A stretch of DNA of 64,000 bases from Bradyrhizobium diazoefficiens (lineage in GTDB: Bacteria > Pseudomonadota > Alphaproteobacteria > Rhizobiales > Xanthobacteraceae). Shown here piece by piece: positions 44,938 to 63,657 of the stretch. Every line of letters begins with the position of its first letter. The stretch's first letter is position 1. The translations under genes were made by a program, and so were the position numbers. The stretch is taken from contig NZ_JAENXS010000005.1 in assembly GCF_016612535.1 (NCBI RefSeq), positions 62,001 to 126,000 of the forward strand. The letters are read 5' to 3'. Below the pieces are notes generated by a model. The model did no database searches. It had not been told where the DNA came from and was given only the letters and a program-made list of their open reading frames with translations.

Positions 44938-46173
44938 GTGAATTGGGACAGCGGGCTTTCCCCGCTAAGACAGCCCCCGGGGGCACCGCATGAACTATCG
45001 GATCACGTGCCACCTGTTGTCACCTCACTCCATCTCACCCGGCGAACCCTCGCCTGCGCCGCGCTTGTTCCCTTCGCGGTCGCACTTGCCCGGCCGCGCC
45101 GTGCAGCGGCGGATTCCGACGTGACCGCGCAGATGCGCGATATCGTTCCCGCCGAGCTCGGGCCGACCGTGACGCCGGAACATCCGGGCGGCCTCGCCGT
45201 CGCGCTCTATGCCGGCCGCCATGCCGAGTTTTTCAACTACGGCTTTGCCGACGACACCACAAAGCGGCCGGTAACGCCGGACACGCTGTTCAATCTCGCC
45301 TCCTTGCGAAAACCGTTCGAGGCAACGCTGGTGGCGCTCGGCACGCTCCAAGGCGAGCTGCGGCTCGACGATCTCCTGCCCAAATATCTGCCGGAGCTGA
45401 GCGGCGACTATATCCGCCACGTCACCGTCGGCGAGCTCGCCACGCACACCTCTGGCCTCTTGCTGCCGACCGATCACCCGCCCTGGCCGAACGACTCATA
45501 CTCCGAGGCGCAGTTCATCGACATGCTCAACGCCTGGACGCCTGCGGGCGTCGCGCCCGGCAAGCAGCGGATCTACTCGCATGCCGGCTACGTGCTGCTT
45601 CAGCTCGTGCTCGAGCGCTGCTATCGCGCGCCGATCCCAGAGCTGATCGAGAGCCGCATCCTCAAGCCGCTCGGCATGCATACGACATTCGTTCCCGAGC
45701 GCGGACGGGACAACCGCGCTATCATGGACGAGGCCGCGATGCGGCGCGTGGTGCAAGGCTATTCCGACCAGGGAACGGCGATCGGCCCGCCCGGCGACCA
45801 GCAGAGCTATTTCGACTTCCCCGGCACCGGCCAGATGTTCTCGAGCGCGCGGGATCTTTCGACCTTCGTGGCGGCCTGCGTCGACGGCCGCTCGGTTGAT
45901 CCACGTTTGCGCGAGGCGCTGCGGATGACGCAGCACGAAAGCTTCCGCGTCGACGAGAAATTCGGACAAGGCATGGCCTGGGAGACCGTGCATCTCGACG
46001 GCCTCACCGTCGTCGACAAGCCGGGCGGCCTCAACAACGCCTCCGGCTATATCGGCCTGGTGCCGGCGCGGCGGATCGGTATCGTGCTGCTGGCCAATCG
46101 CGGCGAATATCCGCACGAGATCGCGCGCTACAAGATTTTGCCTGCGCTGGCGCGGCTCGTCGTGTCACATTGA
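44938..46173 (+). CDS. Serine hydrolase, beta-lactamase class C/esterase type
   Basis: The 411 aa protein has a Tat-like or Sec leader (TRRTLACAALVPFAVALARPRRAAA), the S-x-x-K nucleophile motif NLASLRKPFEA, the tyrosine motif YSHAGYVLLQLVLE and a KPGGLNNASGYIG region in place of the KTG box. Such proteins act as esterases, D-aminopeptidases or penicillin-binding-like enzymes; resistance function is not implied. Its GTG start (44938) is uncertain: a GTG at 45007 in frame is also possible. It is divergent from the ArsR gene. Confidence 0.88.
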   Translation: MNWDSGLSPLRQPPGAPHELSDHVPPVVTSLHLTRRTLACAALVPFAVALARPRRAAADSDVTAQMRDIVPAELGPTVTPEHPGGLAVALYAGRHAEFFNYGFADDTTKRPVTPDTLFNLASLRKPFEATLVALGTLQGELRLDDLLPKYLPELSGDYIRHVTVGELATHTSGLLLPTDHPPWPNDSYSEAQFIDMLNAWTPAGVAPGKQRIYSHAGYVLLQLVLERCYRAPIPELIESRILKPLGMHTTFVPERGRDNRAIMDEAAMRRVVQGYSDQGTAIGPPGDQQSYFDFPGTGQMFSSARDLSTFVAACVDGRSVDPRLREALRMTQHESFRVDEKFGQGMAWETVHLDGLTVVDKPGGLNNASGYIGLVPARRIGIVLLANRGEYPHEIARYKILPALARLVVSH

Positions 46174-46183
46174 AGTGCACGCC

Positions 46184-46888
46184 TCAGACCGAGCGCGTCA
46201 GCCCGCCGTCGACGCGGATGTTCTGGCCGGTGATGTAGGCCGCGCCGTCGGACGCCAGGAACGAGACCGTCGCCGCGATCTCTTCGACCTTGCCATAGCG
46301 CTTCATCGGCACGCTGTCGCGGCGTGCGTCTAGCTGCGACAGGCTGTCAATCCAGCCCGGCAGCACGTTGTTCATGCGGACATTGTCGACGGCATGGGTG
46401 TCGGTGAAGATCTTCGTGAAGGCGGCAAGCCCTGCGCGGAACACCGCCGAGGTCGGAAACATCGCACTCGGCTCGAAGGCCCAGGCGGTCGAGATGTTGA
46501 TGATCGCGCCAGCCTTCTGCGCCTGCATCACCGGCGTCACCAGCCGGGTCGGACGGATCACGTTCAGCAAATATGTATCGAGACCGATATGCCACTGCTC
46601 GTCGGTGATCTCGGTGATGGCCGCGCGCGGCCCGTGACCGGCGCTGTTGACGAGCACGTCGATGCGCCCCCACCGCGCGAGCGCACCGTCGACCAGGCGT
46701 TTCAGATCGTCATTGGACTTGTTGGAGCCGGTCACGCCGAACCCGCCGAGCTCGGCCGCGAGCGCCTCGCCCTTGCCGGAGGACGACAGGACGCCCACGC
46801 GAAAGCCGTCGGCCGCGAGCCGCCGCGCAGCCCCGGCCCCCATGCCGCTGCCGCCTGCGGTGACGAGTGCGACCTTCTCTGCTGCCAT
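46184..46888 (-). CDS. SDR-family oxidoreductase, atypical active site
   Basis: The 234 aa protein has the SDR cofactor region (VALVTAGGSGMGAGAARRLAADGFRVGVLSS) and VLVNSAGHGPRAAI, NISTAWAFEPSAMFPTSAVFRAGLAAFTKIF and VDGGLTRSV. At the usual YxxxK place it reads F-P-T-S-A-V-F-R, so neither the tyrosine nor the lysine is in place. This is the third SDR in the window with a lost tyrosine, in a different subfamily from the two at the left. It converges with the serine hydrolase, ending 10 nt from it. Confidence 0.85.
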   Translation of the reverse strand: MAAEKVALVTAGGSGMGAGAARRLAADGFRVGVLSSSGKGEALAAELGGFGVTGSNKSNDDLKRLVDGALARWGRIDVLVNSAGHGPRAAITEITDEQWHIGLDTYLLNVIRPTRLVTPVMQAQKAGAIINISTAWAFEPSAMFPTSAVFRAGLAAFTKIFTDTHAVDNVRMNNVLPGWIDSLSQLDARRDSVPMKRYGKVEEIAATVSFLASDGAAYITGQNIRVDGGLTRSV

Positions 46889-47012
46889 GACCGATCATCC
46901 CTGTGATAGCGTTGAGGCGAACCGAAGGCCCGGCCTGTCATCAGGCCTTCTACCGCCAGACTTGCCCGCAAACCAGACCCTGCCCGCAGGTCCACCGTCC
47001 AAGGCATCCGTC

Positions 47013-47855
47013 ATGAGCGAGTTGCAGATCCGCAATTTGCGCCCCGAGGAGATCTCCATTGCGATCGACTGGGCCGCGATGGAGGGCTGGAATCCCGGCC
47101 CGCGTGACGCCGCCTGCTTCGCGATCCCCGATGCGCAAGGCTTCTTCGTCGGCGAGATCGGCGGCGAGCCGGTTGCGACCGTGTCCTGCGTCAATTACGA
47201 CGACCGCTTCGCCTTCCTCGGCTTCCACATCGTGCGCAGAGGCTTTCGTGGCAGAGGTCACGGCCTGCGCATCTGGAATGCGGCGATCGCGCATGCGGGC
47301 TCGCGCGTGATCGGGCTCGACGGCGTCGTGGCACAGCAGGACAATTACAGGACATCAGGCTTCCGGTTTGCCTATGCCAATATCCGCTACGGCGGCAGCG
47401 TCGCCGCGCCGGCCAGACCACCCGCCGAAATCGTCGCGCTCGACAAGATTCCGTTCGCGATGGTGGAAGCCGATGACGCCACAATCTTCCCCGCCCGGCG
47501 CGCCGCCTTTCTGCGCGCGTGGATCGACACGCCCGGCCATGTTGGCCGTGCGTTGGTGCACGATGGCAAGCTCGCCGCATGGGGTGTGATCCGCCCGTGC
47601 CGAACGGGACACAAGATCGGCCCGCTGGTAGCCGATGACCGCGCCGCGGCGGACGCCGTCGTGCAGGCTTTGCTGGCGAATCCCGGAAGCAGCGAGATGG
47701 TCCTCGACATCCCCGCCGTAAACCGCGATGGTCTTGCGCTTGCGGAATCCCTGGGCCTGAAGCCGGCGTTCGAAACGGCGCGAATGTACACTGGACCCGT
47801 CCCGACGGGCCAGCTCGACCGCGTGTTCGGCGTAACCAGTTTTGAACTAGGCTAG
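47013..47855 (+). CDS. GNAT-family acetyltransferase, two-domain
   Basis: The 280 aa protein has an N-terminal GNAT domain (LQIRNLRPEEISIAIDWAAMEGWNPGPRDAACF, FLGFHIVRRGFRGRGHGLRIWNAAI with the acetyl-CoA loop R-G-x-G-x-G, YRTSGFRFAYANI) followed by a second domain with a similar fold (APAEIVALDK, ILP-like strands, NRDGLALAESLGLKPAFETARMY). The start at 47013 has AAGG eight bases upstream and begins at the domain; the longer frame is not supported. The family is often annotated as GNAT; substrate unknown. Confidence 0.87.
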   Translation: MSELQIRNLRPEEISIAIDWAAMEGWNPGPRDAACFAIPDAQGFFVGEIGGEPVATVSCVNYDDRFAFLGFHIVRRGFRGRGHGLRIWNAAIAHAGSRVIGLDGVVAQQDNYRTSGFRFAYANIRYGGSVAAPARPPAEIVALDKIPFAMVEADDATIFPARRAAFLRAWIDTPGHVGRALVHDGKLAAWGVIRPCRTGHKIGPLVADDRAAADAVVQALLANPGSSEMVLDIPAVNRDGLALAESLGLKPAFETARMYTGPVPTGQLDRVFGVTSFELG

Positions 47856-48023
47856 TACCGGCCTTGATGCCGATACCAGCTTGAAATTTGTAATCTGTTT
47901 CACATGCCCGCTGCGGCGCAGCGTGTATTGCTGTTCGATCCGCCGATTTTGCCGGACGGCTCGAACATCATTTTTCCGACCACATCATTTTCTCACCATC
48001 GATATTTCATTCAAGAGGATTTG

Positions 48024-48338
48024 ATGACCGAAGCCAGAAGCAGGGCCGGCCCATCTCAGCACACGGCCGAAGACCTGCGGCACCCCGGGATCGTGGCTGC
48101 GTTGCTGCTCGCCGTCGTGACGGCCTTCGGGCTGCACATGCTGATCTCGGCTCCCGCGATACGCGCGGCTGCGGAGGCGGAGCTCGCGCGCGTCATCGCG
48201 GACGAGGATCGAGATGTCTGCGGCCAGTTCGGGTTGCGCGCGGGGACGACCTCTTTTGCGGCTTGCAGCCGCGAGCTCGCGAACGTCAGACAGAAGCAGT
48301 CCGACCGCGACCAGGCGGCCGCGGCAGGAATTCTGTAG
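48024..48338 (+). CDS. Small single-pass membrane protein
   Basis: The 104 aa protein has one hydrophobic helix (GIVAALLLAVVTAFGLHMLISAPAI, about residues 22-46) and a soluble C-terminal part with two cysteines (VCGQFG, AACSRELANVRQKQSDRDQAA). The ATG at 48024 follows AGAGGA at proper distance. No known family is recognised. Confidence 0.65.
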   Translation: MTEARSRAGPSQHTAEDLRHPGIVAALLLAVVTAFGLHMLISAPAIRAAAEAELARVIADEDRDVCGQFGLRAGTTSFAACSRELANVRQKQSDRDQAAAAGIL

Positions 48339-48375
48339 CGCATTCTGTAACGCATTCTGTCATGCAGCAAGCCGC

Positions 48376-48825
48376 TCAGTAGCAGCGCATGATGTTGATG
48401 GTTTGCTCGCCGCCACCGCGGCCGGGCACCGTCACGGACTCCGTCGGGCAGCTCGGCACGTAGGGCCGATCTGACGGTACGACATTCGGCGGGAAGCGAT
48501 GTGCCCAGTCCCAGGGAACGTCGTAGGTGTAGGTGTAGCGCACGTCGTTGGTAACAGGCTGTCCGGCGTCGACGAAGGGCTGGCTGTAGCCTGCGCCGTC
48601 GTTGAAGAAGCCGCCTCCGCCTGGCCAATAGACAAATGAGCCATTGCGGCCACGGAATCGCGCGCCCGGCGCGATCGGCGAACGTGCCGCTGCCGACGCC
48701 GCGTGAGCGGCCATCACGCCATGCGGGGCAGCGCCGCCCGGTCGTGCAAAACTGTCGCCGGGGCTAAGAAGCAGCGCGGCTGCGCTGAGCGAGGCGAGCA
48801 ACGCCCCAAATGATCTGGACATCAT
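48376..48825 (-). CDS. Secreted hypothetical protein
   Basis: The protein of about 149 aa has a signal peptide (MMSRSFGALLASLSAAALLLSPGDSFA) and a glycine/proline-rich mature part (SFVYWPGGGGFFNDGAGYSQP, YTYTYDVPWDWAHRFPPNVVPSDRPYVPSCPTESVTVPGRGGGEQTINIMRCY) with two cysteines near the C-terminus that could pair. An in-frame GTG at 48837 gives four more residues. No family recognised; it looks like an envelope protein conserved in rhizobia. Confidence 0.68.
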   Translation of the reverse strand: MMSRSFGALLASLSAAALLLSPGDSFARPGGAAPHGVMAAHAASAAARSPIAPGARFRGRNGSFVYWPGGGGFFNDGAGYSQPFVDAGQPVTNDVRYTYTYDVPWDWAHRFPPNVVPSDRPYVPSCPTESVTVPGRGGGEQTINIMRCY

Positions 48826-49111
48826 GATACGCACCAACTCGTTTGGCTTCGCGGATAGCGGCTCCCCACCGCACGCTAGGCCGGCCCGTCGCCCGCCCGC
48901 AAACGTATAATTAATTGTTGGTTAAGGCACGGGATTATCAGGGAAGCCGGTGCGGCAAGACGCCCGGGATTTCAGTCGGTTTGACCGAAATCGTGCTGCA
49001 AAATTCATCGCCTCATGAGCAGTTGATGGGAGTTGATCGTGCCAGCTGAACAGGTCCGGAACGCTCCCCATTGCGATCGTTGGCTCCGACACAAGAAAAG
49101 GAGCATCTCGC

Positions 49112-49399
49112 ATGCAACGCAGAATGAAACTCGTGCCCCTGATCGCAGCAACGCGTGTCGCGGGCACGGCCGCCGCGTCAGCGCAAACCTACGATCGGTT
49201 CGGCAATCCCGTGGGATGGCAACGGCCCCCGCCAGCATATGAACGGGTGCAGCCGCGCGCGATGTACTATTCTGGCACAGCGGGCCCCTATGCCGCGCTC
49301 AACGGCACCAACCATCCGACGCCAAGCTCGACGCAGGGCGACGTCGGCCCTGACGGCAACAATAACGGCACCCTGACCGGCGGTTATCGCAACTGGTAA
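49112..49399 (+). CDS. Small secreted Gly/Asn-rich protein
   Basis: The 95 aa protein has a short signal peptide (MKLVPLIAATRVAGTAAASAQ, cleavage near AQT) and a tail rich in Pro, Gly and Asn (NHPTPSSTQGDVGPDGNNNGTLTGGYRNW). A strong AAAAGGAG precedes the ATG. It converges with the last curlin-like gene, 53 nt away. The function is unknown; the position next to the curlin-like cluster may be chance. Confidence 0.65.
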   Translation: MQRRMKLVPLIAATRVAGTAAASAQTYDRFGNPVGWQRPPPAYERVQPRAMYYSGTAGPYAALNGTNHPTPSSTQGDVGPDGNNNGTLTGGYRNW

Positions 49400-49451
49400 G
49401 CCTGGCTCGACCGAAGGCCCCTCGTCCGCACCAGCGATGGGCCTTCGTACC

Positions 49452-49742
49452 TCAGTGACCCCGCTGCTTGCGCAGCCAATCCAGCATGTCCTGCGCGTTT
49501 CCCGTGCCCTGCGACACGATCGCGGTATTGCCGCCGCTGCGGCGGTAGACCGTGGTGCGGCCCGGCTCCTTATCGATCCTGACCTCGGCCTGCGCCGGAT
49601 CGCCGCTTTGCGTAATTGTCGCCGTGCCGTTTTCGTCCTGAACCACGGTGGTGTGGCTGTCATTGGCCTCACCGGCGCCGGCCGGCGCCATCGCCATGAC
49701 GGTCATCAGGCTCATTCCGGATGCGAGCAGGAGCAACTTCAT
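49452..49742 (-). CDS. Small secreted protein with weak curlin-like repeats
   Basis: The 96 aa protein has a signal peptide (MKLLLLASGMSLMTVMAMAPAGAGE) and a mature region with N-G-T-A-T-I-T-Q and G-G-N-T-A-I-V-S-Q-G-T-G-N, resembling the NxAxxxQ strand of curlin. The repeat is weaker than in the four genes upstream, and the C-terminus (DMLDWLRKQRGH) is helical. It is the last gene in the row, 20 nt after its neighbour. It may be a nucleator, chaperone-like or minor subunit. Confidence 0.62.
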   Translation of the reverse strand: MKLLLLASGMSLMTVMAMAPAGAGEANDSHTTVVQDENGTATITQSGDPAQAEVRIDKEPGRTTVYRRSGGNTAIVSQGTGNAQDMLDWLRKQRGH

Positions 49743-49762
49743 GTCATACCTCTTCGTCTCGA

Positions 49763-50221
49763 TCAGCGGTTGAACTGGAAGATGGCCAGCCAGTTGAAAC
49801 GTCCGAACTGCCTGACGGCTCCCGTATTCATATCGCCGACCTGAAGCAGCAGCGCATTCGTCGAATTGCCGACCTGGGTGATGTCCGCGATGTTACTCAG
49901 GCCCGACTGGCCGACCAGCGCATTGGTGGTGCTGCCGACCTGAATCACGTCCACATAGTTGCGCGTCCCGTTCTGGACAATCGTCGCATCGACGGTTCCT
50001 GTCCCGATCTCGATCACGCGTGCGATATTGATGCGGCTGTTCTCCACGATCGTGACCGGCTGGACGTTGTTGCCGAACTCCACGACCGTCTCGATGCTCA
50101 CATTCCTGTTGCTCACGCCGCGCTCGATGGACCCGGCGGATGCCTCTGTCGCCAGGTTGATGGTGGCGAACGCTGCCATCACCGCCAGGATCCGCCTCAG
50201 GCCGTGTTTGCCGTATCGCAT
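49763..50221 (-). CDS. Curlin-like repeat protein
   Basis: The 152 aa protein has a signal peptide (MRYGKHGLRRILAVMAAFATINLATEASA) and a mature part of about 11-12 residue repeats: VQNGTRNYVDVIQVGSTTNALVGQSGLSNIADITQVGNSTNALLLQVGDMNTGAVRQFG, in the Q-x-G-x-x-N pattern of CsgA/CsgB curlin. The ATG at 50221 has GGGGAG five bases upstream. It lies between two other curlin-like genes with gaps of 20 and 43 nt. The first part of the mature chain is poorer in repeats, which could suit a nucleator. Confidence 0.78.
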   Translation of the reverse strand: MRYGKHGLRRILAVMAAFATINLATEASAGSIERGVSNRNVSIETVVEFGNNVQPVTIVENSRINIARVIEIGTGTVDATIVQNGTRNYVDVIQVGSTTNALVGQSGLSNIADITQVGNSTNALLLQVGDMNTGAVRQFGRFNWLAIFQFNR

Positions 50222-50264
50222 CGCCGCTCCCCTTCGCATTGAGGTCAACGCCTCCTCAGGCACT

Positions 50265-50672
50265 TCACGGGCTGCTCTGGTTCACCGTCGAGGAGTTGAT
50301 CGCGCCGAATTGCGCGATGGCTCCCGTATTCATGGCCCCGAGCTGCGACACGAGGCTCGTCGCCGACTGGCCGGTCTGGCCGACAAAGGCGAGATTGTTC
50401 ACGCCAGCCTGCCCGACCGATGCCGAATTCGTTCCGCCGAATTGCAGGATGCCGGTGGCGTTGTTGGTGCCGTTCTGGATAACGGTCGCGCTGGTGCTGC
50501 CGCCGATCATGAACACGCCCGCCATGTTGAGCTGACTGTTCTGGTTCAGCACGATCGGCGGGCCGCCGACCGAAACGATGGTCTTGATGTCGGCGGTCTG
50601 GGCGCCGGCCGATCCAGCAGCGCAACAGAGCGCGAGAAACGAGACGCAGGCGACGCCTGGAAAGTGTTTCAT
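50265..50672 (-). CDS. Curlin-like repeat protein
   Basis: The 135 aa protein has a signal peptide (MKHFPGVACVSFLALCCAAGSAGAQT) and at least six Q-x-G-x-x-N units with a period near 11: IQNGTNNATGI, LQFGGTNSASV, GQAGVNNLAFV, GQTGQSATSLV, SQLGAMNTGAI, AQFGAINSSTV. This is the curlin beta-strand period. The ATG at 50672 has GCGAGG at proper distance. It is likely secreted and amyloid-forming; this is inference. Confidence 0.82.
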   Translation of the reverse strand: MKHFPGVACVSFLALCCAAGSAGAQTADIKTIVSVGGPPIVLNQNSQLNMAGVFMIGGSTSATVIQNGTNNATGILQFGGTNSASVGQAGVNNLAFVGQTGQSATSLVSQLGAMNTGAIAQFGAINSSTVNQSSP

Positions 50673-50689
50673 GACATGCCTCGCCGCGA

Positions 50690-51082
50690 TCACGGAGTCT
50701 GCTGGAGAATCGTCGAGCCGTTCAGGATCCCGAGCTGGCCAACTCCGGCCGCGTTGTTGGCGCCGATCTGGCCGATCAGGCTCGAATTGGAGCCGCCGGC
50801 CTGACCGGCCAGCGCCGAGTTGGTCGCGGTCGCGGTGGTGCCGCCCTGCCCGATCACCGAATTATTGACGGTCAGGAGCGAGCCCATCTGCAACGTCGTC
50901 GCGGTGTTGGTTGCACCGAACTGCAAGGTCGTGGCGCTGTTGTTGGCGCCCCCGCTCTGGGAGATGAAGGAGTTGTTCGTTGCACCGAATTGCAACACGC
51001 TGGCCGAGTTGCCGGCCTGGGCATCGACAGCGGTCAACAGGCTGAACGTGACGGCCGTCGCGATAATGAATTTGGTTTTCAT
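50690..51082 (-). CDS. Curlin-like repeat protein
   Basis: The 130 aa protein has a signal peptide (MKTKFIIATAVTFSLLTAVDAQA) and repeats LQFGATNNSFI, SQSGGANNSATT, LQFGATNTATT, LQMG, GQGG, GQAGGSNSSLI, GQIGANNAAGV, GQLGILNGSTI. The start follows GGAGGA at seven bases. It ends 17 nt before the next curlin-like gene. The regular Q/N spacing is the main argument for a curlin-like amyloid fold. Confidence 0.82.
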   Translation of the reverse strand: MKTKFIIATAVTFSLLTAVDAQAGNSASVLQFGATNNSFISQSGGANNSATTLQFGATNTATTLQMGSLLTVNNSVIGQGGTTATATNSALAGQAGGSNSSLIGQIGANNAAGVGQLGILNGSTILQQTP

Positions 51083-51201
51083 GTCATTTCCTCCGCCAAT
51101 GTCGGCGAGCGACCTCTGGTTTGGTCGACGAGTCCGATTGCGGTCTTTGAGAATGGCCCGGACGCGTCGCGCTGTGACGCGCCCGGCCAAACGGGGCTGG
51201 T

Positions 51202-51603
51202 TCAGTGCGCCGTCTGCGAGACGCCGCTGGTGTTGACGCCGAACGCGCTCAGCTGACCGACGCCGGCGGAGTTGTTCTGGAGTGCGGCGGGCCCGAACGA
51301 ATTCTGGGTGATCCCGCTGCCGTTGTTGCCGAACGCCACCTGGCCGGTGGTCGCCGAGTTCTGCACGCCGATCTGATTCACGGAGCTGGCGTTGTTGAGC
51401 GAGGCGGCGCTCGTACCCTGCATGGTGGATGCACCGTTCAGGATGCCGACCTGGGTCGTCGACGAGCTGTCATTGGTGAGGCCGTTCTGCGTGACGCTGG
51501 ACGAGTTCACGACGCCGAGCTGAACCGTGGTCGAAGTATTGGCTGCCTGAGCCGCGGACGACAGAGCGAACACGGCGACGGAAGCGAGGAGCAATTTACG
51601 CAT
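51202..51603 (-). CDS. Curlin-like repeat protein, first of the row
   Basis: The 133 aa protein has a signal peptide (MRKLLLASVAVFALSSAAQAA) and repeats VQLGVVNSSSV, TQNGLTNDSSST, TQVGILNGAST, NQIGVQNSATT, GQVAFGNNGSGI, TQNSFG, GQLSAFGVNTSGV. The ATG at 51603 has AAAGGGA upstream. It is transcribed leftward ahead of four similar genes, with a 119 nt gap to the next one that might hold a second promoter or a processing site. A FixJ-like regulator gene lies 167 nt upstream. Confidence 0.8.
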   Translation of the reverse strand: MRKLLLASVAVFALSSAAQAANTSTTVQLGVVNSSSVTQNGLTNDSSSTTQVGILNGASTMQGTSAASLNNASSVNQIGVQNSATTGQVAFGNNGSGITQNSFGPAALQNNSAGVGQLSAFGVNTSGVSQTAH

Positions 51604-51770
51604 GGAGTATCCCTTTCTTGCCAAGTTGTCTAAGCAGGTTGCAGATGCCGTCTTGGAGGAGGCCGACATCGTAGGGATGACTCTGAACCGATTGCGCTCG
51701 ATGCGACAGACTGCAGTTCATGCTAGTCGCTACGGACTAGACGATGCACGGCAAGTCGTCGCTCGCGAGA

Positions 51771-52424
51771 CTAGGCTTGCGACTGTCCCGCGCCGCTCGG
51801 CGCCGTCTCCTGCCGCATGCTGTCGATCAATCTCGCGACCTCGATTGGCGATCGCAATTCGAGCTTTCGCATCATCCTGGCGCGATGCACCTTGACCGTC
51901 ACTTCGCTGAGCTGGAGCTTCGCTGCAATCTGCTTGGCGACAAGTCCTTCCGCCATCAGCAACATGATCTCGCGCTCCCGCGCCGTCAGCGTCTCGACGC
52001 GCTGCCGGGCCTCGCGCACCGTGTCTTCCCGCTCCAGCCGCCGTCGATCGCGCTCGATGCCATGCCTGATGGCGTCCAGGATCTCCTGCTCGCGAAACGG
52101 CTTTGGCAGAAACTCGACAGCGCCGAGCTTCATGGCTTCGACGGAGACACGCACGTCCGAGTGGCCGCTGATGAAGACGATCGGAATCGGCACGCCCGAT
52201 TTAGCCAACCTGCGCTGGAGCTCGAGCCCGGTCGGTGACGTGCCGGGGAAGCGGACGTCGAGCACCAGGCAGGATGGTCCGACGGACAACTCCTCCTCGA
52301 GGAACTCGTCCGTCGAGGCAAACAGCTTCACTTGATGTCCTGTCTCCTCGCAGAGGCTGCCAATTGCACTTCGTATCTGGATTTCGTCGTCAACGACATA
52401 AACTGTGGCTTGATTTGAACTCAT
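51771..52424 (-). CDS. FixJ/NarL-like response regulator
   Basis: The 217 aa protein has a receiver domain (VYVVDDEIQIRSAIGSLCEETGHQVKLFASTDEFLEE, phospho-acceptor D56 in CLVLDVRFPG, FLPKPF) and a GerE-type helix-turn-helix (LTAREREIMLLMAEGLVAKQIAAKLQLSEVTVKVHRARMMRKLELRSPIEVARLID). The ATG at 52424 is preceded by GGAG at nine bases; the longer frame has no matching family sequence. The gene points toward the curlin-like row, and no partner kinase is adjacent. It is the obvious candidate regulator of that row, though this is only from position. Confidence 0.9.
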   Translation of the reverse strand: MSSNQATVYVVDDEIQIRSAIGSLCEETGHQVKLFASTDEFLEEELSVGPSCLVLDVRFPGTSPTGLELQRRLAKSGVPIPIVFISGHSDVRVSVEAMKLGAVEFLPKPFREQEILDAIRHGIERDRRRLEREDTVREARQRVETLTAREREIMLLMAEGLVAKQIAAKLQLSEVTVKVHRARMMRKLELRSPIEVARLIDSMRQETAPSGAGQSQA

Positions 52425-53015
52425 TGCAATACGCTCCGGGACTTGGCGCTCGCTGATCCAGCAACGAGCCATCCATTGTTCTTGCAAGCGATAACAAGGT
52501 GCTTGAATGCATGCGCGACGACCGAGCGATTCTCGTCGGCCCGCAAGTCTCACGTCTTAGGGCCAACAGCCCGTCAAGACGAGTGAAGGCGTTCACATAT
52601 CGGGTTTCATGATTGTAAGGACCAGGTACCGCCACAGGCGGCATCACGGCGAGATACCATGTCGAGGATGTGACAGTCCGGCGTTGCAGCCGTGATATCG
52701 CCAACTGCGTCATGGCTTCGCCACCCATGCGCCGAATTGAACGCCAATGACCCGCAAAACAGACGGGACGTTCAGTCAGCTGTCGAGTTTCGATACCGCG
52801 CGCATCTTTTTGAATACGCCCGGTATGCGCTCCCTGCAAATCACGAAAGGTCGCACCCCGCCGACTTTACTTCTGGATCATGGAGCGCACCCGACCGTCG
52901 CCCTAAGAACGGCGACACACTGCCAAGCCACCGATATTAAACGGACGAAATACAACCATTGCGCGATCTACGCGGCTTCCGCCAACGAAGTCATTTAAGA
53001 AGGCGGGTTTTTGAT
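52425..53015. other. Intergenic region, no gene seen
   Basis: No convincing coding region is visible in these 591 nt; the open frames here show no signal peptide, domain or Shine-Dalgarno support. A short dyad GTCGCC-N8-GGCGAC lies near 52,897-52,916. The region separates the FixJ-like gene from the MacAB-like operon and must hold both promoters. Confidence 0.55.
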
Positions 53016-54446
53016 ATGCGATTTGTGCCAGTCATTGTCCTGTTTGGGACTGCGTGCGGCCTCGCCACCATCTATGGCGCGGCACCGGACGTCGTTGCGG
53101 GCGCTGCGGGGAGCGCCGCGGACGGCGTGAGCCGGGCCTATCAGTCGACGAGGCAGTTCCTCAAACCCGGCGGCGCTGAGACCCCGACCTTCGGGTCGGA
53201 CGCACCCGTGTTCCGCTACGCCGCAATTCAGCGCGGGAGCATCGAGCAGACCGTCACCGTCACGGGGGCCCTGCAGCCCGTCAAGACGATCGAGGTCGGC
53301 TCGCAACTGTCCGGGCAGCTCGCCCGCGTCTATGTCGACTTCAACGACACCGTCAGCAAGGACCAGCCGCTTGCCCTGATTGATCCCCGCAGCTTCGCGG
53401 CCAAGGTCGACGAAGCCAGGGCGGCGCTGGCGGTCTCCGATTCCCTGGTCGACATCGAGCGGGCCAAGCTCGATCGCGCCAGGATCGACCTGCAAAATGC
53501 CAAGGGCAGCCGCGACGTGCTCGCCGCCAAGCTCGACAGTGCGCAGGCGGTGAAGGCATCGGCGCAGAAGACCCTGCAACGCAAGCTGGCACTCCAGTCG
53601 CAGAACGTCGTGGCGACGTCGACGGTCGACGATGCGCAGACGGAGTTCACGGCGCGCGTGGCCCAGGAGCGCGAGGCCGAGGTCATGATGTCCCTCAATA
53701 CCTTCTCGGTGGACGGCGCGCTGGCCGACGTCCGTCGGATCGAAGCCGAGCTGGACCAGGCCAGAATGGCGGTTCCGGAGAAAGCCGCCGTCCTTGCGGC
53801 GGCGCAAGCCGATCTCGACCGCACGGTGATCCGCTCGCCGATCGACGGCGTCGTGGTGGGCAGGTTCGTCAACGAAGGGCAGACACTCGCGGTCGGCCTG
53901 GAGTCCCGCACCACCTTCGTGGTCGCCCATCGTCTCGAGGACATGGAAATCCACGCGCAGGTCGACGAAGCCGACATCGGACACATCGCCGCCGGCCAGC
54001 GGGCTCACTTCACGGTGGATGCCTATCCCGACCGCCGATTCGAGGCGGCCGTGCGGCAGGTGCGCAAGGCGCCACAGAACCAGCAGCACGTGGTTACCTA
54101 TACGGTCGTGCTATCGACCTCCAATCTCGATGGCGCGCTGCTGCCGGGAATGACCGCCCTGGTCAAGATCGTGATCGAGCAGCAGGACAACGTGCTGAAA
54201 GTGCCGCTGGCGGCGCTCCGCTTCCAGCCCTCCGGTGCGCGGGCAGACACGGCCGCCGGGCGCAGCGGCGTCTGGGTGCGCACCGCCAATGGCGCACTTC
54301 AGCGCATCCCTGTGACCGTCGGCGCGGCGGGCACCGAACAGGTGGCGCTCAAGAGCGGAGAGCTCGTCGAGGGCAGCCAGGTCGCCGTCGGGCAGGCGAT
54401 CCGGCCGGCCGGCATGGAATTTCTCGGCATCAGGTTCGGATCATGA
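53016..54446 (+). CDS. MacA-like periplasmic adaptor (HlyD/RND-type MFP)
   Basis: The 476 aa protein starts with a signal anchor (MRFVPVIVLFGTACGLATIYG) and has a biotinyl-lipoyl-like half (VKTIEVGSQLSGQLARVYVDFNDTVSKDQPLALIDPRSF), a long coiled coil (residues about 130-270), a second lipoyl half (LDRTVIRSPIDGVVVGRFVNEGQTLAVG) and beta-barrel domains. It links an inner-membrane ABC exporter to an outer-membrane channel. Its stop overlaps the ATPase start, and the genes 53016-56388 are one operon. No TolC gene is near. Confidence 0.92.
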   Translation: MRFVPVIVLFGTACGLATIYGAAPDVVAGAAGSAADGVSRAYQSTRQFLKPGGAETPTFGSDAPVFRYAAIQRGSIEQTVTVTGALQPVKTIEVGSQLSGQLARVYVDFNDTVSKDQPLALIDPRSFAAKVDEARAALAVSDSLVDIERAKLDRARIDLQNAKGSRDVLAAKLDSAQAVKASAQKTLQRKLALQSQNVVATSTVDDAQTEFTARVAQEREAEVMMSLNTFSVDGALADVRRIEAELDQARMAVPEKAAVLAAAQADLDRTVIRSPIDGVVVGRFVNEGQTLAVGLESRTTFVVAHRLEDMEIHAQVDEADIGHIAAGQRAHFTVDAYPDRRFEAAVRQVRKAPQNQQHVVTYTVVLSTSNLDGALLPGMTALVKIVIEQQDNVLKVPLAALRFQPSGARADTAAGRSGVWVRTANGALQRIPVTVGAAGTEQVALKSGELVEGSQVAVGQAIRPAGMEFLGIRFGS

Positions 54447-55168
54447 CAGGCACCCTGCCCCTCATCAGCCTGCGATCCGTCGGCCGGACCTACCGCATGG
54501 ACGGGATCGCGGTCCCCGCGGTCCGCAATGTCAGCTTCGATATCGACCAGGGCGAGATCCTCGCCGTCATGGGACCGTCCGGGTCTGGCAAGTCCACCCT
54601 GATGAACATGATCGGCCTGCTCGATCTGCCGAGCGAGGGCGCAATCTATCTCGAGGGCGCCAATGTCGCCGACCTCTCTGAAGACCGCAGGTCGACCTTG
54701 CGCGCCCGCAGCATCGGCTTCGTGTTCCAATCCTATAATCTGCTGGCGCGCCACAACGCGATCGAGAACGTCGCCCTGCCGCTGGTCTATTGCGGCGTCG
54801 GCCACAAGGAGCGCCTCGTGCGCGCGGAGCGGAGCCTGGAAGCCGTCGGCATGCTGCATCGGGCGCATCACTTTCCCCGGCAGCTGTCGGGCGGCGAGCA
54901 GCAGCGTGTCGCCATCGCACGCGCGCTGATTGCGTCCCCGCTGATCGTCCTCGCGGACGAACCGACCGGCGCACTCGACAGCCGCACCGGCGCCGAGATC
55001 CTGGCATTGTTCGCCGCGCTCAACCAGACCGGCCAGACCGTCGTGATGATCACACACGATCCCGGCATCGCAACCCAGTGCCGGCGCACCATCCGCCTGC
55101 ATGACGGCGAGCTCGTCGGTGACGAGACGCTAGCGCCTCTGCTGCCGAAACGGAGCGTTGCGTCATGA
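54443..55168 (+). CDS. MacB-like ABC transporter ATPase
   Basis: The 241 aa protein has Walker A GPSGSGKST, the Q-loop FVFQSYNLLARHNAIENVALPL, signature LSGGEQQRVAIARAL and Walker B/D-loop LIVLADEPTGALDSRTG. This is the LolD/MacB class. E. coli MacB carries ATPase and permease in one chain; here they are separate genes with a four-base overlap. It powers export of a macrolide, lipoprotein or peptide-like substrate; which one is unknown. Confidence 0.95.
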   Translation: MTGTLPLISLRSVGRTYRMDGIAVPAVRNVSFDIDQGEILAVMGPSGSGKSTLMNMIGLLDLPSEGAIYLEGANVADLSEDRRSTLRARSIGFVFQSYNLLARHNAIENVALPLVYCGVGHKERLVRAERSLEAVGMLHRAHHFPRQLSGGEQQRVAIARALIASPLIVLADEPTGALDSRTGAEILALFAALNQTGQTVVMITHDPGIATQCRRTIRLHDGELVGDETLAPLLPKRSVAS

Positions 55169-56388
55169 CGATGCTTCAGGGCTTTCAGATCGCTCTGCAC
55201 GCCTTGCGGCTCAACCCGCTGCGCAGTTTCCTCACGATGCTCGGGATCGTGATCGGCGTCGCCTCCATCGTGACGGTCTTTGCGATCGGCTCCGGCGCGC
55301 AGCTTCGCCTGCAGGAGCAGATCCGCTCGATCGGCGCCAACGTCCTGATGATCACGCCCGGCGCGGTCTACCAAGGCGGCGTCCGCCTCAAGGAGGGCAC
55401 CAAGCTGACGATGACCGAAAGCGACGTGCAGGCGATCCTCGAGCAGATTCCTGAAATCCAGGCCGCGGCCGGTTCGATCGCCGGAACGGCGCAAGTCATC
55501 CACGAGAGCAAGAACTGGAACACGACGATCAATGGCACGACGGCCGGGCACTTCATGGTGCGCGACTGGCAGCTCGCGTCCGGGCGCTACTTTTCGAGCA
55601 CCGAGGAGGCCGCCGCCGGAAAAGTCGTGATCCTCGGCAGCACGGTCGCGCGCGAGCTGTTCTCACCGGACGACGATCCTATCGGCGCACAGATCAGGAT
55701 CATGAAGGTGCCGCTCGAAGTGATAGGCGTGCTCGATCACAAGGGACCCGCGCAGGACGACGTCGCCTTCGTCCCTCTCACCACGGCCAAGCTGCGCTTC
55801 CTCGGCAGCGCGAGCAACATCAACCGGGATTCGGTCGCCTACATCATTGCGAAGGTGGCCGCCGACGGTCAGATGACCGGAGCACGATCTGAAATCGAAA
55901 GCCTGCTGCGGCAGCGGCACCGGATCGCGGCTGGCCAGGAGGACGACTTCAAGGTCCAGGATCCGGCTGCCGCCATGGAAGCGCAGCAGGGCGCGATCCG
56001 CACCGTGGCGCTTCTGCTCGTCGCCATTGCCTCGGTCTCGTTGCTGGTCGGCGGCATCAGCATCATGAACGTCATGATCGTGTCGGTGACCGAGCGCACC
56101 CGCGAAATCGGCATCCGTCGCGCGCTCGGCGGGCGGATGCGGGACATCCGTCTGCAGTTTCTCTGTGAAGCGCTCGTACTCTGCCTGCTCGGCGGCGCCA
56201 TCGGCGTGCTCGGCGGCGTCACGCTGTCGATGACGGTCGCACGCATGGCCGGCTGGGTCACCTCGATCGACGGCGAAGCAATTGCCCTGGCCCTCGCCTT
56301 TTCAATCGCGACCGGCCTCATCTTTGGTTTCTATCCTGCACACAAGGCGTCCAAGCTCAGTCCAATCGAGGCGCTCAAGACGGAGTGA
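55165..56388 (+). CDS. MacB-like ABC transporter permease
   Basis: The 407 aa protein has the MacB/FtsX layout: N-terminal helix (LRSFLTMLGIVIGVASIVTVFAIGSG), a large periplasmic domain and three C-terminal helices (VALLLVAIASVSLLVGGISIMNVMIVSVTERTREIGIRRALGG, LVLCLLGGAIGVLGGVTLSM, IALALAFSIATGLIFGFYPAHKASKLSPIEAL). It overlaps the ATPase gene by four bases. With the adaptor it forms a tripartite export pump that needs a TolC-like outer channel from elsewhere. Confidence 0.94.
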   Translation: MTMLQGFQIALHALRLNPLRSFLTMLGIVIGVASIVTVFAIGSGAQLRLQEQIRSIGANVLMITPGAVYQGGVRLKEGTKLTMTESDVQAILEQIPEIQAAAGSIAGTAQVIHESKNWNTTINGTTAGHFMVRDWQLASGRYFSSTEEAAAGKVVILGSTVARELFSPDDDPIGAQIRIMKVPLEVIGVLDHKGPAQDDVAFVPLTTAKLRFLGSASNINRDSVAYIIAKVAADGQMTGARSEIESLLRQRHRIAAGQEDDFKVQDPAAAMEAQQGAIRTVALLLVAIASVSLLVGGISIMNVMIVSVTERTREIGIRRALGGRMRDIRLQFLCEALVLCLLGGAIGVLGGVTLSMTVARMAGWVTSIDGEAIALALAFSIATGLIFGFYPAHKASKLSPIEALKTE

Positions 56389-56441
56389 GAACATGCTGGG
56401 TTGGCCACGACATCAAACCAGAGGCCAGGGAGGAGCTAGTC

Positions 56442-56759
56442 ATGAGCCCGGATCCGAAAGACTTGATTACGCCGACGCCGCGTGAGCGCGAATTGATGAT
56501 GCTCATCGCGCGCGGGATGCAGAACAAGAACATCGCCTACGAGCTCAAGATCTCGGAGAACACGGTGCGGGCGCATATCGGCAACATCATGCGCAAATAC
56601 CGCCTCCATAACCGGACCCAGATCGCGATCGTCTATGCACTGAAGGCGGCCCCGCTCTCGCTACGGCGCGATCTGACCAAGAGCGGCGCCAACCCGGCGG
56701 CCGTCAAGCCCGCACAGGCGCTTGCGCAAAATCCAAGGGTTCCGACCGCGCCTGATTGA
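56442..56759 (+). CDS. Stand-alone LuxR/GerE-type DNA-binding protein
   Basis: The 105 aa protein is one GerE helix-turn-helix (LITPTPRERELMMLIARGMQNKNIAYELKISENTVRAHIGNIMRKYRLHNRTQIAIVYAL) with no receiver domain and a disordered tail (PAAVKPAQALAQNPRVPTAPD). GGAGG lies seven bases before the ATG at 56442. It follows the MacAB operon by 53 nt and may be in the same transcript. Single-domain LuxR proteins often work with a partner regulator. Confidence 0.88.
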   Translation: MSPDPKDLITPTPRERELMMLIARGMQNKNIAYELKISENTVRAHIGNIMRKYRLHNRTQIAIVYALKAAPLSLRRDLTKSGANPAAVKPAQALAQNPRVPTAPD

Positions 56760-57693
56760 CTACCCTGGCCACAACACCTTGCGCGTGGCGTCGGGCAAAA
56801 CACCCAAGTCGGGGTCAAGAGAACATCGACAAAATATTTCTCTTTATTAGAATTCGGATTTTTGTTAGACATTATTTACTCCGGCCCAAGGAAGAGGGGC
56901 GATCGCGATCGTCACGAACGCGGGCCGGATGGCGGTGGGCGTGGATCACATCGGCGCGAAGGGTTTTGCAGGGCGGGCAACCGTGAGCGAGGCCGTCGCG
57001 CGCACGACCGGTGTGATCGGCGTACGGCAAAATCGTGTGGTCCTGGTGCCCGGAGCCTGTGCGCCAAGTCTTGCGGTGATGGGTGTCGCCCAACCGGGTG
57101 CACACATCAGCCATCTGCAAGGCGACGGGGGCAATAGTGCATCGCTCCCCGGGGAGATCACGACATAAGCCGTCAAACCACTGCGCAGGGAAGGCCGGAT
57201 GTTTTGGCTACACCTGTATGCCGCTGTGCAGCCTCTTGTAGCGCAACCTTCGCACAGTGGACCGCGGGTGCCAGCCGGCACCCGGTCTTCCCTGCGCCTT
57301 CTTTCAATTGAGGGGGAGGCGACCAAGCAAAGCTCGGGCGAACAAGCCGCGAGGATGCGAACTCATGTTGATGTTTCAAAGACGGTCTCGTTCCCCGGAC
57401 GCAGTGCAGCGCGCAGCAGTGCGCTGCAGAGCCGGGGCCCATGTTGCAGCGAACCGCGCGGCCTCTCTGGGTCCCGACTCTGCGCAGCAACGCGAAGACG
57501 CGTCGCAGCGCGTCCGGGACATGAGGGCCCTGCCCCTTCATCCCCGCAATGACGAATCCGTGGACGCCTGGCCCCTTCCCTGTCACTTCTGCATGCCCAT
57601 TCGCTCTTGTAACAAAACTGTCATGCAGCAAAACTAAACGATACCCGGGGGCCGCGGTTCGGCGGCCAAGCTGCCTCACCGTTAGGAGATTTG
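56760..57693. repeat. Gene-free region made of dispersed-repeat material
   Basis: No gene is convincing across these 934 nt. The part from about 56,890 to 57,310 and the part from about 57,325 to 57,560 look like intergenic repeat blocks I recall from many Bradyrhizobium sequences (GC-rich, with short palindromes such as GCAGCGC...GCGCTGC at 57,406-57,427 and many in-frame stops in all frames). Open frames in it have repetitive, arginine/cysteine-rich translations and no domain. A local structured unit is listed separately. Confidence 0.6.
57183..57297. ncRNA. Structured element, candidate repeat RNA
   Basis: An 11-bp closing stem, GCGCAGGGAAG (57183-57193) with its complement at 57287-57297, encloses a stem at 57221-57229/57252-57260 (9 pairs, one G-U) and a short hairpin GGGTGCC-AGCC-GGCACCC at 57266-57283. 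GCTACA at 57207-57212 could also pair with TGTAGC at 57237-57242, which would make a pseudoknot with the second stem. Nested, compatible pairing over 115 nt is unlikely by chance, but transcription is not shown and the strand is not known. Confidence 0.4.
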
Positions 57694-59550
57694 ATGCGCC
57701 GTTCACTGGTGTTGCTGTCAGCCGGGCTGACAGTCCTGTCCACCGGATTTGCCTCCGCAGAGAATAACACGCCCCGCAACCTGATCCTGTTCATTCCCGA
57801 CGGGTTGCGCGCGCTGAAGGTCACCCCCGAGACGGCGCCGGCGATGGCCGAGGTCCGCGACAAGGGCGTCAACTTCAAGAACTCGCATTCGCTGTTCCCG
57901 ACCTTCACCATGGCCAACGGCTCGGCGATGTCGACCGGCCATTATCTCGGCGACACCGGCGTGTTCTCCAACACGATCTGGACCAACTATACCTCGACGC
58001 CCGCCGGCGACACCGTAGTCCCCTTCATCGAGAACGACGCCGTGCTCGGCGATATCGACGAGCATTTCAAGGGCGACTATCTCAACGAAGACACCGTTTT
58101 GAAGATGGCCCGCGACAAGGGGCTGAGCACGGCGGCGATCGGCAAGGTCGGCCCGACCTACCAGTGGGACCACACCGATCATCCGGACAAGCCGGGCAAG
58201 CACTCGATCGTCATCGACGATGCCACCGGCGGCAAGGCCGGCGTGGCGCTCTCGGACGAAATGAAGGACGCCCTCACCAAGGCCGGTCTCGCCCTCGCCG
58301 CCCCCGGCCGCGGCGACAACGGCAAGGCCGGCGATGCCAGGACGCCCGGCACCACGACGGCCAACATCGTGCAACAGGCCTATTTCGCCGACGTCGCCAC
58401 CAAAGTGGTGCTGCCGATGTTCAAGGCGCGCAACAAGCCGTTCGTGCTGGTGTTCTGGTCGCGCGATCCTGATGGCACCCAGCATAATCAGGGTGACAGC
58501 CTCAACCAGATCCTGCCGGGCATCAACGGCCCGAGCACGATAGCGAGCATCAAGAATGTCGACAACAACCTCGCCCAGATCCGCAAGGCGCTGGACGAGC
58601 TCGGGCTTGCCGCCAACACCAACATCATGATCCAGGCCGACCACGGCTTCTCGACCATCTCCAAGGAGAGCAAGACCAGTCCCTCGGCCAAGGTCAGCTA
58701 TGACGACACGCCGAAGGACTTCTTGCCGATGGGCTTCGTGGCATTGGACCTTGCCAAGGCGCTCGACCTGCCGCTGTTCGACCCCAACGACAAGAACGCG
58801 GCCGTCACCGGCAACGCCCATCCGAAGGCCGGCAATGGCGTGCTCGGCAAGGATCCGACCAAGCCCGATGTTGTCGTCGCCACCAATGGCGGCTCGGATC
58901 TCGTCTACCTGCCGAACAAGGACAAGAAGCTCGCAGCCAGGACCGTCAAGGCTCTGATGGAGCAGGACTACGTCTCCGGCCTGTTCGTCGACGACTCCCT
59001 CGGTCGCTTCCCCGGCACGCTGCCGCTGTCGAGCATCAATCTGCGCGGCAAGGCGGCGACGCCGACCCCTGCGATCGTCGTCAACTTCCGCTCCTACGCC
59101 AGCGAGTGCGGCGAGGCGCCGACCAATTGCTCGGTGCAGGTCGCCGACACCGTGCTGCGCCAGGGCCAGGGCATGCACGGCAGCTTCAGCCGCGGCGACA
59201 CCTACAACTTCATGGCTGCGATCGGTCCGGACTTCAAGGCCGGCTTCGTCGACGAGCTCCCGGTCAGCAATGCTGACGTTGGCATGACCGCGGCCCAGCT
59301 CCTGGGCCTGCGTGGTTCGGAGAATGGCGGCCTGGTCGGCCGGGTGATGTCCGAGGCCCTGCCCAACGGCATCATCCCGAAGGCGTTCAAGGCCGTGGAG
59401 AAGTCGAAGAAGAAGTCCGAGAACGGTCTCGAGACCGTGCTCAACGTCCAGCGCGTCGGCAGCCAGCGCTATTTCGACGCTGCCGGCTTCGTCGGCCGGA
59501 CGCTTGGCCTGGAGCCGGAGGCCGGCAAACAAAAAACGGCGGGGAAATAA
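57694..59550 (+). CDS. Secreted alkaline phosphatase/phosphodiesterase-superfamily enzyme
   Basis: The 618 aa protein has a signal peptide (MRRSLVLLSAGLTVLSTGFASAE) and the NPP/alkaline phosphatase metal motifs: LILFIPDGLRA, FPTFTMANGSAMSTGH with the catalytic Thr, FWSRDPDGTQHNQGD and IMIQADHGFSTI. It probably hydrolyses phosphodiesters or nucleotides in the periplasm using two metal ions. GGAG lies six bases before the ATG at 57694. The stop codon lies in the loop of the terminator hairpin at 59537. Confidence 0.92.
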   Translation: MRRSLVLLSAGLTVLSTGFASAENNTPRNLILFIPDGLRALKVTPETAPAMAEVRDKGVNFKNSHSLFPTFTMANGSAMSTGHYLGDTGVFSNTIWTNYTSTPAGDTVVPFIENDAVLGDIDEHFKGDYLNEDTVLKMARDKGLSTAAIGKVGPTYQWDHTDHPDKPGKHSIVIDDATGGKAGVALSDEMKDALTKAGLALAAPGRGDNGKAGDARTPGTTTANIVQQAYFADVATKVVLPMFKARNKPFVLVFWSRDPDGTQHNQGDSLNQILPGINGPSTIASIKNVDNNLAQIRKALDELGLAANTNIMIQADHGFSTISKESKTSPSAKVSYDDTPKDFLPMGFVALDLAKALDLPLFDPNDKNAAVTGNAHPKAGNGVLGKDPTKPDVVVATNGGSDLVYLPNKDKKLAARTVKALMEQDYVSGLFVDDSLGRFPGTLPLSSINLRGKAATPTPAIVVNFRSYASECGEAPTNCSVQVADTVLRQGQGMHGSFSRGDTYNFMAAIGPDFKAGFVDELPVSNADVGMTAAQLLGLRGSENGGLVGRVMSEALPNGIIPKAFKAVEKSKKKSENGLETVLNVQRVGSQRYFDAAGFVGRTLGLEPEAGKQKTAGK

Positions 59551-59558
59551 CCCCGCCG
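59537..59558 (+). terminator. Rho-independent-type terminator hairpin
   Basis: CGGCGGGG-AAATAA-CCCCGCCG is an 8-bp perfect stem whose loop contains the stop codon of the phosphodiesterase gene, followed by CTTCATTT. A second hairpin at 59567-59585 (GCGCCCTCA and its complement) lies just beyond it and could serve the convergent gene at 59615. Confidence 0.75.
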
Positions 59559-59614
59559 CTTCATTTGCGCCCTCAATGAGGGCGCGAAAATCTCTCGGTC
59601 ACATGCCCGGATTT

Positions 59615-60181
59615 TTACATTCCAATGTCGAACACGTTCGGCAATTGGCCCGCCAAAGGCAGCGCGGTGGCGCCCAGGAAGGTCGCCACCATCGCCATCA
59701 GACGACGGTTGTTGTGGCGCTTGCCGCGCATCTGGCCGGCGATCCATTCCAGCATCTCGCTGTTGACCTTCGAGGCATAGGACGGCGCCCAGCTCTCGAT
59801 GTCCTGCGTCAGCGCAACGTTGCGCGGCGGCACCTTCAAACCGGAGGCACTTGCGGCGTAGTGGGCGACGGCCTTGGTCAGCAAATCCTCGAACCGGCCG
59901 CCATCGGTGCGCTCGGTCGCGGCCTCGTTGATCTCGAACAGTGCTTCGGCTTCGGCACGGCTGACCGGCTGGTCGTTAACCGCGGTGGCGGTCAGGATGC
60001 GAGCGCACCAGGCGGTATCATCGGTATCGAGCGAGCGAGAAAAGTGCACCCGGCCCTTGGTGGTCGGGCCTTCGCCCGTGATCACGCCGTCGCGCACAAT
60101 CGAGAGTGCATGGGCCGCTGTATCGCGGCAGGACGGTTCGAGGGACGGCGATTCAACGGATTTAGGCGCAGCGGCGGACAT
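59615..60181 (-). CDS. Hypothetical protein with C-terminal hydrophobic segment
   Basis: The 188 aa protein reads DTAAHALSIVRDGVITGEGPTTKGRVHFSRSL, SRAEAEALFEINEAATERTDGGRFEDLLTKAVAHYAASASG and a C-terminal hydrophobic segment (LMAMVATFLGATALPLAGQ). The EALFEINEA motif recalls loop-helix proteins, but no family is certain. It is convergent with the phosphodiesterase gene. The start at 60181 has a good AAGTGAACT-like purine region but no clear Shine-Dalgarno. Confidence 0.6.
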   Translation of the reverse strand: MSAAAPKSVESPSLEPSCRDTAAHALSIVRDGVITGEGPTTKGRVHFSRSLDTDDTAWCARILTATAVNDQPVSRAEAEALFEINEAATERTDGGRFEDLLTKAVAHYAASASGLKVPPRNVALTQDIESWAPSYASKVNSEMLEWIAGQMRGKRHNNRRLMAMVATFLGATALPLAGQLPNVFDIGM

Positions 60182-60557
60182 AGTTCACTTCCAGATTTCT
60201 TCTGATCGACCAGCATTTTCATGCGGGCGTAAAGGGGTGGTTAACGATTCGATACGGGGATCGCGACTTTTCATGATGGTTGCCAATTGGTCGCTATCAG
60301 GACGGTTTTGGTTCCATCAAACGTCGGGCGAGCGTGATGCGGGTCATAAAAGGCTTTATCGGGGCAATCGGGACCGTGTCGCTCTGGTGAAGATGTTTCG
60401 CCGCAGGCGCCCCTCTAACAGAAAGGTGCTAGGAAATCGGCCTCTCAGGGAAGGAGTTCACATTTGACTTGAAGCGGTTCACTTGGTCTCGCCGAGACCT
60501 TATACTAATAGCGACGACAGTAATTCACAAGCAAATTCAATGTGATGAGGTAGAACC
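60182..60557 (+). promoter_or_regulatory. Peroxiredoxin promoter region
   Basis: There is no gene in these 376 nt. The right end contains a sigma-70-like promoter with TTCACT (60478-60483) and TATACT (60501-60506) at 17 bp spacing. The spacer is filled by the palindrome GGTCTC-GCC-GAGACC (60485-60499), a position where a repressor or MerR-type activator would act. Confidence 0.6.
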
Positions 60558-61217: not shown

Positions 61218-61318
61218 GGGGCCGTTATCCGGTTGCACGCTCGGCGGCCTCCCTGCCCGTCAGTTGCATCACGGCCGGCCGATGGTTTCGGCCGGCCAAG
61301 GGGAAGATCAAGGAGAGA

Positions 61319-63589: not shown

Positions 63590-63657
63590 GCGCTGCTTTG
63601 ACACAATTATGAAACCCGCTATCGTCATCGCTCCATGCAAACCGTGGGGGACACGAT

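Follow-up and report, generated by a model that had tools for sequence, protein, structure and literature searches.

Genes of the locus

We present here an analysis of a nine-gene unit in Bradyrhizobium diazoefficiens in which a row of curlin-type genes is joined to a MacAB-like pump. The window, a stretch of 64,000 nucleotides (contig NZ_JAENXS010000005.1, positions 62,001 to 126,000 of the forward strand), comes from an assembly (GCF_016612535.1) of 7.99 megabases in 14 contigs that is 99.99% complete, and the unit occupies window positions 49452 to 56388. It comprises genes for five secreted proteins (g1 to g5, the row), a FixJ-like regulator, and a three-gene MacA-MacB pump; g1 to g5 are consecutive minus-strand genes behind the response regulator and are divergent from macA-macB1-macB2. 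An earlier note on this DNA had drawn its boundaries around the row and the regulator; both are real, but the pump (53016 to 56388) had been left out, though it is linked to the row. The note had also given all five leftward genes signal peptides, and signal-peptide-like starts, judged by eye, were confirmed in all five. The features of the unit are as follows.

51202 to 51603, minus strand: g1, secreted curlin-like repeat protein, 133 amino acids
50690 to 51082, minus strand: g2, curlin subunit, 130 amino acids (Curlin_rpt, 39.7 bits)
50265 to 50672, minus strand: g3, curlin subunit, 135 amino acids (Curlin_rpt, 54.1 bits)
49763 to 50221, minus strand: g4, curlin subunit, 152 amino acids, start codon uncertain (Curlin_rpt, 53.3 bits)
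49452 to 49742, minus strand: g5, short secreted protein of an unnamed family found at CsgG-less curlin loci
51705 to 51740, minus strand: conserved stretch ahead of g1, possible operator, with an inverted repeat at 51723 to 51740
51771 to 52424, minus strand: FixJ-like response regulator (Response_reg and GerE)
53016 to 54446, plus strand: macA, HlyD/MacA-type periplasmic adaptor
54443 to 55168, plus strand: macB1, MacB/LolD-type ATPase
55165 to 56388, plus strand: macB2, MacB-type permease

Curlin repeats

Units of the form Q-x-G/A-x(2,3)-N occur five, six, five, and six times in g1, g2, g3, and g4, respectively, and not at all in g5; when the mature part was shuffled 10,000 times, these counts were matched by 1, 0, 3, 0, and all 10,000 shuffles. 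The spacing is always 11 residues in g4, and g1 to g3 mix steps of 11 or 12 with longer gaps. The description of four genes with curlin repeats and a fifth with a weaker form thus holds, the first four lying far above chance. A Curlin_rpt search had been proposed as a check, and its outcome was divided: the curated Pfam cut-off (PF07012, 20.7 bits) was passed by g2, g3, and g4, but g5 fell below it at 11.6 bits and g1 gave no match. All five Curlin_rpt matches of the genome fall inside the row.

Among 28 g1 orthologs, Curlin_rpt matched 8 at an E value of 1 or less (best, 1.7e-4), and the unrelated low-complexity model dbPDZ_assoc matched 11 (best, 5.4e-5); because the latter scores as well as Curlin_rpt, the hidden Markov model (HMM) evidence for g1 is weak. 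The predicted model of g1 shows repeat strands. That g1 might be an unrelated protein was considered and rejected on the motif test and this model, despite the Curlin_rpt miss. The NCBIfam CsgA and CsgB models matched g2 to g4 at scores far under their cut-offs, the highest being 46 bits where 165 are required. A profile of 28 g3 orthologs matched PDB entries 8c50 (E value, 8e-38) and 8enq, a major curlin subunit (E value, 0.001). Assignment of the subunits to the known curlin family is well supported by these comparisons, and g5 is, judged by its sequence, a short and weak relative of the row. The ratio of nonsynonymous to synonymous substitution rates (dN/dS) has medians of 0.06 to 0.29 across the nine genes. 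A paralog-rich curlin-type locus lacking csgG and csgF, as the earlier note proposed, is supported by HMM matches in three of five genes, the motif in four of five, the g1 model, and purifying selection.

Linkage of row and pump

Two samples were searched: 98 Bradyrhizobium genomes (genus sample) and 296 genomes from 47 genera (family sample). The row is present in 28 of the 98 genus genomes and a macA ortholog (74 to 100% identity) in exactly those 28; outside them, macA matches reach at most 44% identity among the matches listed, and the other 70 genomes have no ortholog. Of these 70, 63 lack Curlin_rpt at an E value of 0.001 or less and 7 carry other curlin genes. The coincidence does not reflect general regional relatedness, because the flank gene pde57 is found in 85 of the 98 genomes. 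The order macB2-macB1-macA, regulator-g1-g2-g3-(g4)-g5, with the divergence point between macA and the regulator, is kept in every one of the 27 genus loci fetched; g4 was not found in L066 and is divergent in L062. A search of named genomes with the g3 alignment returned 46 loci, which overlap the genus sample, and all 46 have the regulator, g1 to g5, and macA at least partly; in L182 the contig ends inside the pump. An apparent macA stop in L141 was rejected as damage, since its genome (G067) gives an open match from a true-start query. One record carrying the unit and its flanks (JAUEPE010000035.1, L143) is titled Frankia sp. RB7 and is probably mislabelled.

Linkage of row and pump is well supported by these counts. 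The earlier note had offered the pump as an export route without direct support; it now has strong linkage to the row, and export itself is something we infer.

The borders of the unit are marked by two further genes.

49112 to 49399, plus strand: h49, small open reading frame bordering the block on its left, present at 8 of 20 block-less sites, no Pfam family
57691 to 59550, plus strand: pde57, flank gene past the right border, used as a control

Twenty places around pde57 lack the block, namely, those of 19 unit-less genomes and of G017, whose unit sits elsewhere. Flank genes sdr46, h47, or h48 share a stretch with pde57 at 17 of them, the others having pde57 only (L105 and L115, both near a contig end, and L117), and none of the nine unit genes was found at any of the 20 at an E value of 1e-5 or less. 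The unit is thus present or lost as one block. Junctions vary by genome. The final bases of g5 are still present in L108, L109, and L111, alignable to the window through the stop codon, and the block was therefore deleted there. Recent mobile acquisition is disfavoured by this remnant at three block-less sites and by the G+C content of the block, which equals that of the window (0.637). A second lineage carries the block at another place: L056, L182, and L183 lack the usual flank genes, share a context with one another, and have 56 to 84% protein identity.

On a tree built from 43 pde57 proteins (22 from loci with the block, 20 from places that lack it at this site, and 1 outlier), block presence has to change 13 times, and well-supported branches force at least 6 of these changes. 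Presence is scattered on this tree, 134 of 500 shuffles needing as few changes, and because some of the states could have been spread by recombination there, they were not counted as independent.

These data bear on two alternatives. Under the first, the regulator would drive a fibre row together with a pump that handles small molecules from plants or microbes, and the pump would ignore the curlins. Row and pump do diverge around one regulator, and antibiotics are also expelled by MacB-type pumps, as described in passages of PMC5985334; but neither half occurs without the other in the 98 genomes, and the halves stay joined in the second chromosomal context (L056, L182, and L183), so that we regard mere shared control as rather unlikely. 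Under the second, the locus would be a decaying remnant of a curli operon after loss of csgG. The presence of CsgG in some members of the genus and the deletion of the block in some genomes would suit decay, but the median dN/dS is 0.29 or less in all nine genes, which already disfavours it, frames are open in nearly all loci, and the curlins at genus CsgG loci are distant (25 to 44% identity). We consider a remnant most improbable.

Absence of the Csg export genes

Searches of the genome that carries the window found no CsgG, CsgF, or CsgH; no search was made for CsgE or Fap. As controls, the CsgG search detected both E. coli and Caulobacter and the CsgF search detected E. coli; the CsgH search gave no match in this genome or in the 28 unit genomes of the genus sample, nor in any of the 14 control genomes. 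CsgH was found in 8 of the 98 genus genomes. The earlier statement that the window holds no csgG, csgE, or csgF stands for csgG-like genes in the part that was read (46000 to 64000), where none was seen, and genome-wide for CsgG and CsgF, but not for CsgE, which was not searched.

CsgG occurs in 7 of the 98 genus genomes, none of which carries the unit. Curlin_rpt is found in 35 genus genomes, 28 with the unit and 7 without, and CsgG is present in 5 of the latter. Among the 296 genomes of the family sample, Curlin_rpt matches 29 at an E value of 1e-4 or less, and CsgG is present in 18 of the 29: none of the 8 with the unit and 18 of the 21 others. Merged without double counting, CsgG is found in 0 of 32 unit genomes versus 22 of 27 other curlin-bearing genomes (Fisher P value, 9e-12, kinship ignored). 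Curlin genes with no CsgG match were also seen in one other genus of the family (G158, G360, and G371; loci L120, L134, L136, and L137); no such pump is present at these four loci, and L134 and L136 give weak CsgH-like matches.

The g5 family

An HMM built from 28 g5 proteins matched all 27 unit loci and all 5 loci of a second curlin type in four CsgG-less genomes. It matched none of the 7 CsgG-bearing loci of the genus and none of the 13 family loci that have CsgG nearby; of the 7 remaining family loci, it matched 1. As a marker, the family is thus present at 32 of 32 CsgG-less loci and 0 of 20 CsgG loci, with one exception, L132, whose genome (G318) carries a partial match to CsgG on a different contig. 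No Pfam family was found at an E value below 0.01 in the 28 members, and none of the best 120 of 255 database relatives has a precomputed Pfam domain; the names that NCBI gives among those 120 are hypothetical proteins from Bradyrhizobium. The AlphaFold2 model is weak (predicted local distance difference test score, 65), with five strands and a C-terminal helix. Identification of g5 as CsgH by homology was rejected, there being no CsgH match in the genome and no Pfam family in the 28 proteins. We suggest that g5 may be an assembly or anti-aggregation accessory.

The second curlin type lies in G047, G058, G065, and G070 (L065, L069, L079, L080, and L081), genomes without CsgG. Its loci hold a curlin of about 480 amino acids, short curlins, and g5-like genes, the last present twice in L065, L079, and L081. 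NHLM-type ATP-binding cassette (ABC) export genes, recognized by eye, adjoin the curlins in two of the five loci (L065, 14110 to 19738; L069, 12289 to 19226), and one of them has a peptidase-like N-terminus, also by eye; they may mark another route or may be there by chance. A patatin-like protein, likewise assigned by eye, is encoded among the curlin genes at 8814 to 9830 of L065 and 9169 to 10185 of L079.

Pump and regulator

MacA exceeds the cut-offs of HlyD_D23 (62.1 bits) and HlyD_3 (42.6 bits) and scores 137.8 of 342 bits against the MacA equivalog; macB1 matches ABC_tran (115.4 bits), and all 27 of its orthologs have the Walker A and signature motifs; macB2 matches MacB_PCD (162.9 bits) and FtsX (67.9 bits). 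Neither half reaches the cut-off of the whole-protein MacB equivalog (236.5 and 226.7 of 966 bits). The hairpin tip of MacA reads R-x3-L-x6-A in 25 of 26 orthologs; the TolC-docking motif of MacA has the same R and L, with S in place of A. The pump resembles MacAB-TolC and three-gene YknXYZ-type systems in its HlyD-type adaptor, MacB_PCD/FtsX permease, and MacB/LolD-type ATPase, but differs from them in having no outer-membrane factor gene alongside and in being strictly linked to curlin genes across the genomes examined. Genes of the TolC type (OEP), four over the cut-off and one weak match, all lie on contig C2, away from the locus.

In the Pfam search, no protein encoded by the nine genes scored over the cut-off of an outer-membrane family. 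Such an absence would suit curlin-like proteins that form a repeat-protein layer within the periplasm or envelope and, not being exported, need no CsgG; but known curlins form surface fibres, as stated in the parts of PMC4838910 cited here, and a layer of this kind leaves the pump linkage unexplained, so that it seems very unlikely. The same absence weighs differently on a protective pump, in which subunits would leave by some other outer-membrane exit and the MacAB-like pump would clear misfolded or membrane-bound ones. YknXYZ, whose ATPase and permease are likewise separate, is described as protective and is thought to shield Bacillus from SDP (PMC5985334), and protection would account for the linkage as well as for damaged macA in 2 of 46 loci; but it requires an extra exporter, for which the nine products offer no outer-membrane match. 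We think protection rather unlikely. Export of the curlins by the pump, the reading that we prefer, finds a precedent in passages of PMC5985334, according to which the STII peptide reaches the periplasm via Sec and leaves via MacAB-TolC and MacB probably picks up substrates in the periplasm; by analogy, secreted curlins would be available where MacB probably takes its substrates.

The regulator matches Response_reg (75.4 bits) and GerE (66.4 bits) and separates the row from the pump in each of the 27 genus loci; its best NCBIfam model is FixJ (172.9 bits, cut-off 255). Ahead of g1 is an inverted repeat, CTAGTC-N6-GACTAG (51723 to 51740), which has one match in the window, an exact one, against 0.86 expected with up to two mismatches. 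Across 27 sequences, most columns of 51705 to 51725 are at least 95% conserved and the others at least 85%, and the outer half of the repeat is less conserved. The block at 51705 to 51740 is a possible operator. Because the regulator lies between row and pump and a conserved block stands ahead of g1, control of the row by the FixJ-like gene is plausible.

Interpretation

We read the unit as a curlin amyloid locus that lacks CsgG and in which the secreted subunits are handled, and probably exported, by the MacAB-like pump; we give this a probability of roughly 0.5. A more specific version, in which a dedicated MacAB-type pump secretes the curlins instead of CsgG and loci without CsgG have a new accessory in the g5 family, is tentative and somewhat short of even odds. 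In the reading that we prefer, the subunits would cross the inner membrane by Sec and, once in the periplasm, be prevented from aggregating too soon, a task that g5 might perform; the pump would drive them over the outer membrane via a TolC-type channel encoded elsewhere; outside, they would assemble into matrix or adhesion fibres; and the regulator would switch row and pump jointly.

Several points weigh against export by the pump. Linkage suits co-regulation or self-protection equally well, neighbours may have been co-lost by chance or recombined, independent losses are not proven, and fibre formation and cell exit of the g1 to g5 products are predictions. That none of the 98 genomes has both CsgG and the unit is not in itself significant (P value, 0.087), and the Fisher tests ignore kinship. 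Five curlin-bearing genomes (G058, G070, G158, G360, and G371) have neither CsgG nor the unit's pump, and the unit is therefore not the sole answer to a missing CsgG. At an E value of 1e-110 or less, macA is found in 8 of the 296 family genomes, all Bradyrhizobium, which confines the unit to one genus at that threshold. The row is kept where macA is damaged in 2 of the 46 named loci, by a deletion from macA into macB1 in L171 and a macA frameshift in L179, and it is intact in L072 (G077), where macB2 is shortened or frameshifted. MacB-type peptide substrates are, in the account given in part of PMC5985334, commonly small and disulphide bonded, unlike curlins.

The unit shares with curli (type VIII secretion) its secreted Curlin_rpt subunits, the side-by-side paralogs, and an adjoining GerE (LuxR-type) regulator, but it has no CsgG, CsgF, or CsgH that we could find, a linked MacAB-like operon, and a FixJ-like regulator. 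Alphaproteobacterial csgH loci, as described in passages of PMC3521004 and PMC4838910, carry csgH, whose product inhibits amyloid formation (PMC4838910), and CsgG lies nearby in 13 of 20 family loci here; the unit has neither and holds g5 and macAB instead. It resembles Fap export through FapF in being a possible non-CsgG route for a functional amyloid. A search of open-access paper listings found no report linking curlins to a MacB-type pump. The subunits belong to a known family; what is new is the g5 family and the export candidate linked to the row.

In the sections of the 2012 survey by Dueholm cited here (PMC3521004), many Alphaproteobacteria have curlin subunit homologs only and alternative proteins are needed in place of the Csg proteins that they lack; the unit supplies a named, conserved candidate for them, and its linkage makes the pump a testable candidate for the row's export route. 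Should the pump prove to export curlins, amyloid subunits would join the known substrates of MacB-type pumps, and a further secretion route for functional amyloids would stand beside CsgG and FapF. The presence and absence of the unit among near relatives make deletions and natural comparisons easy. The genus consists of nitrogen-fixing symbionts, in which surface fibres could affect root attachment.

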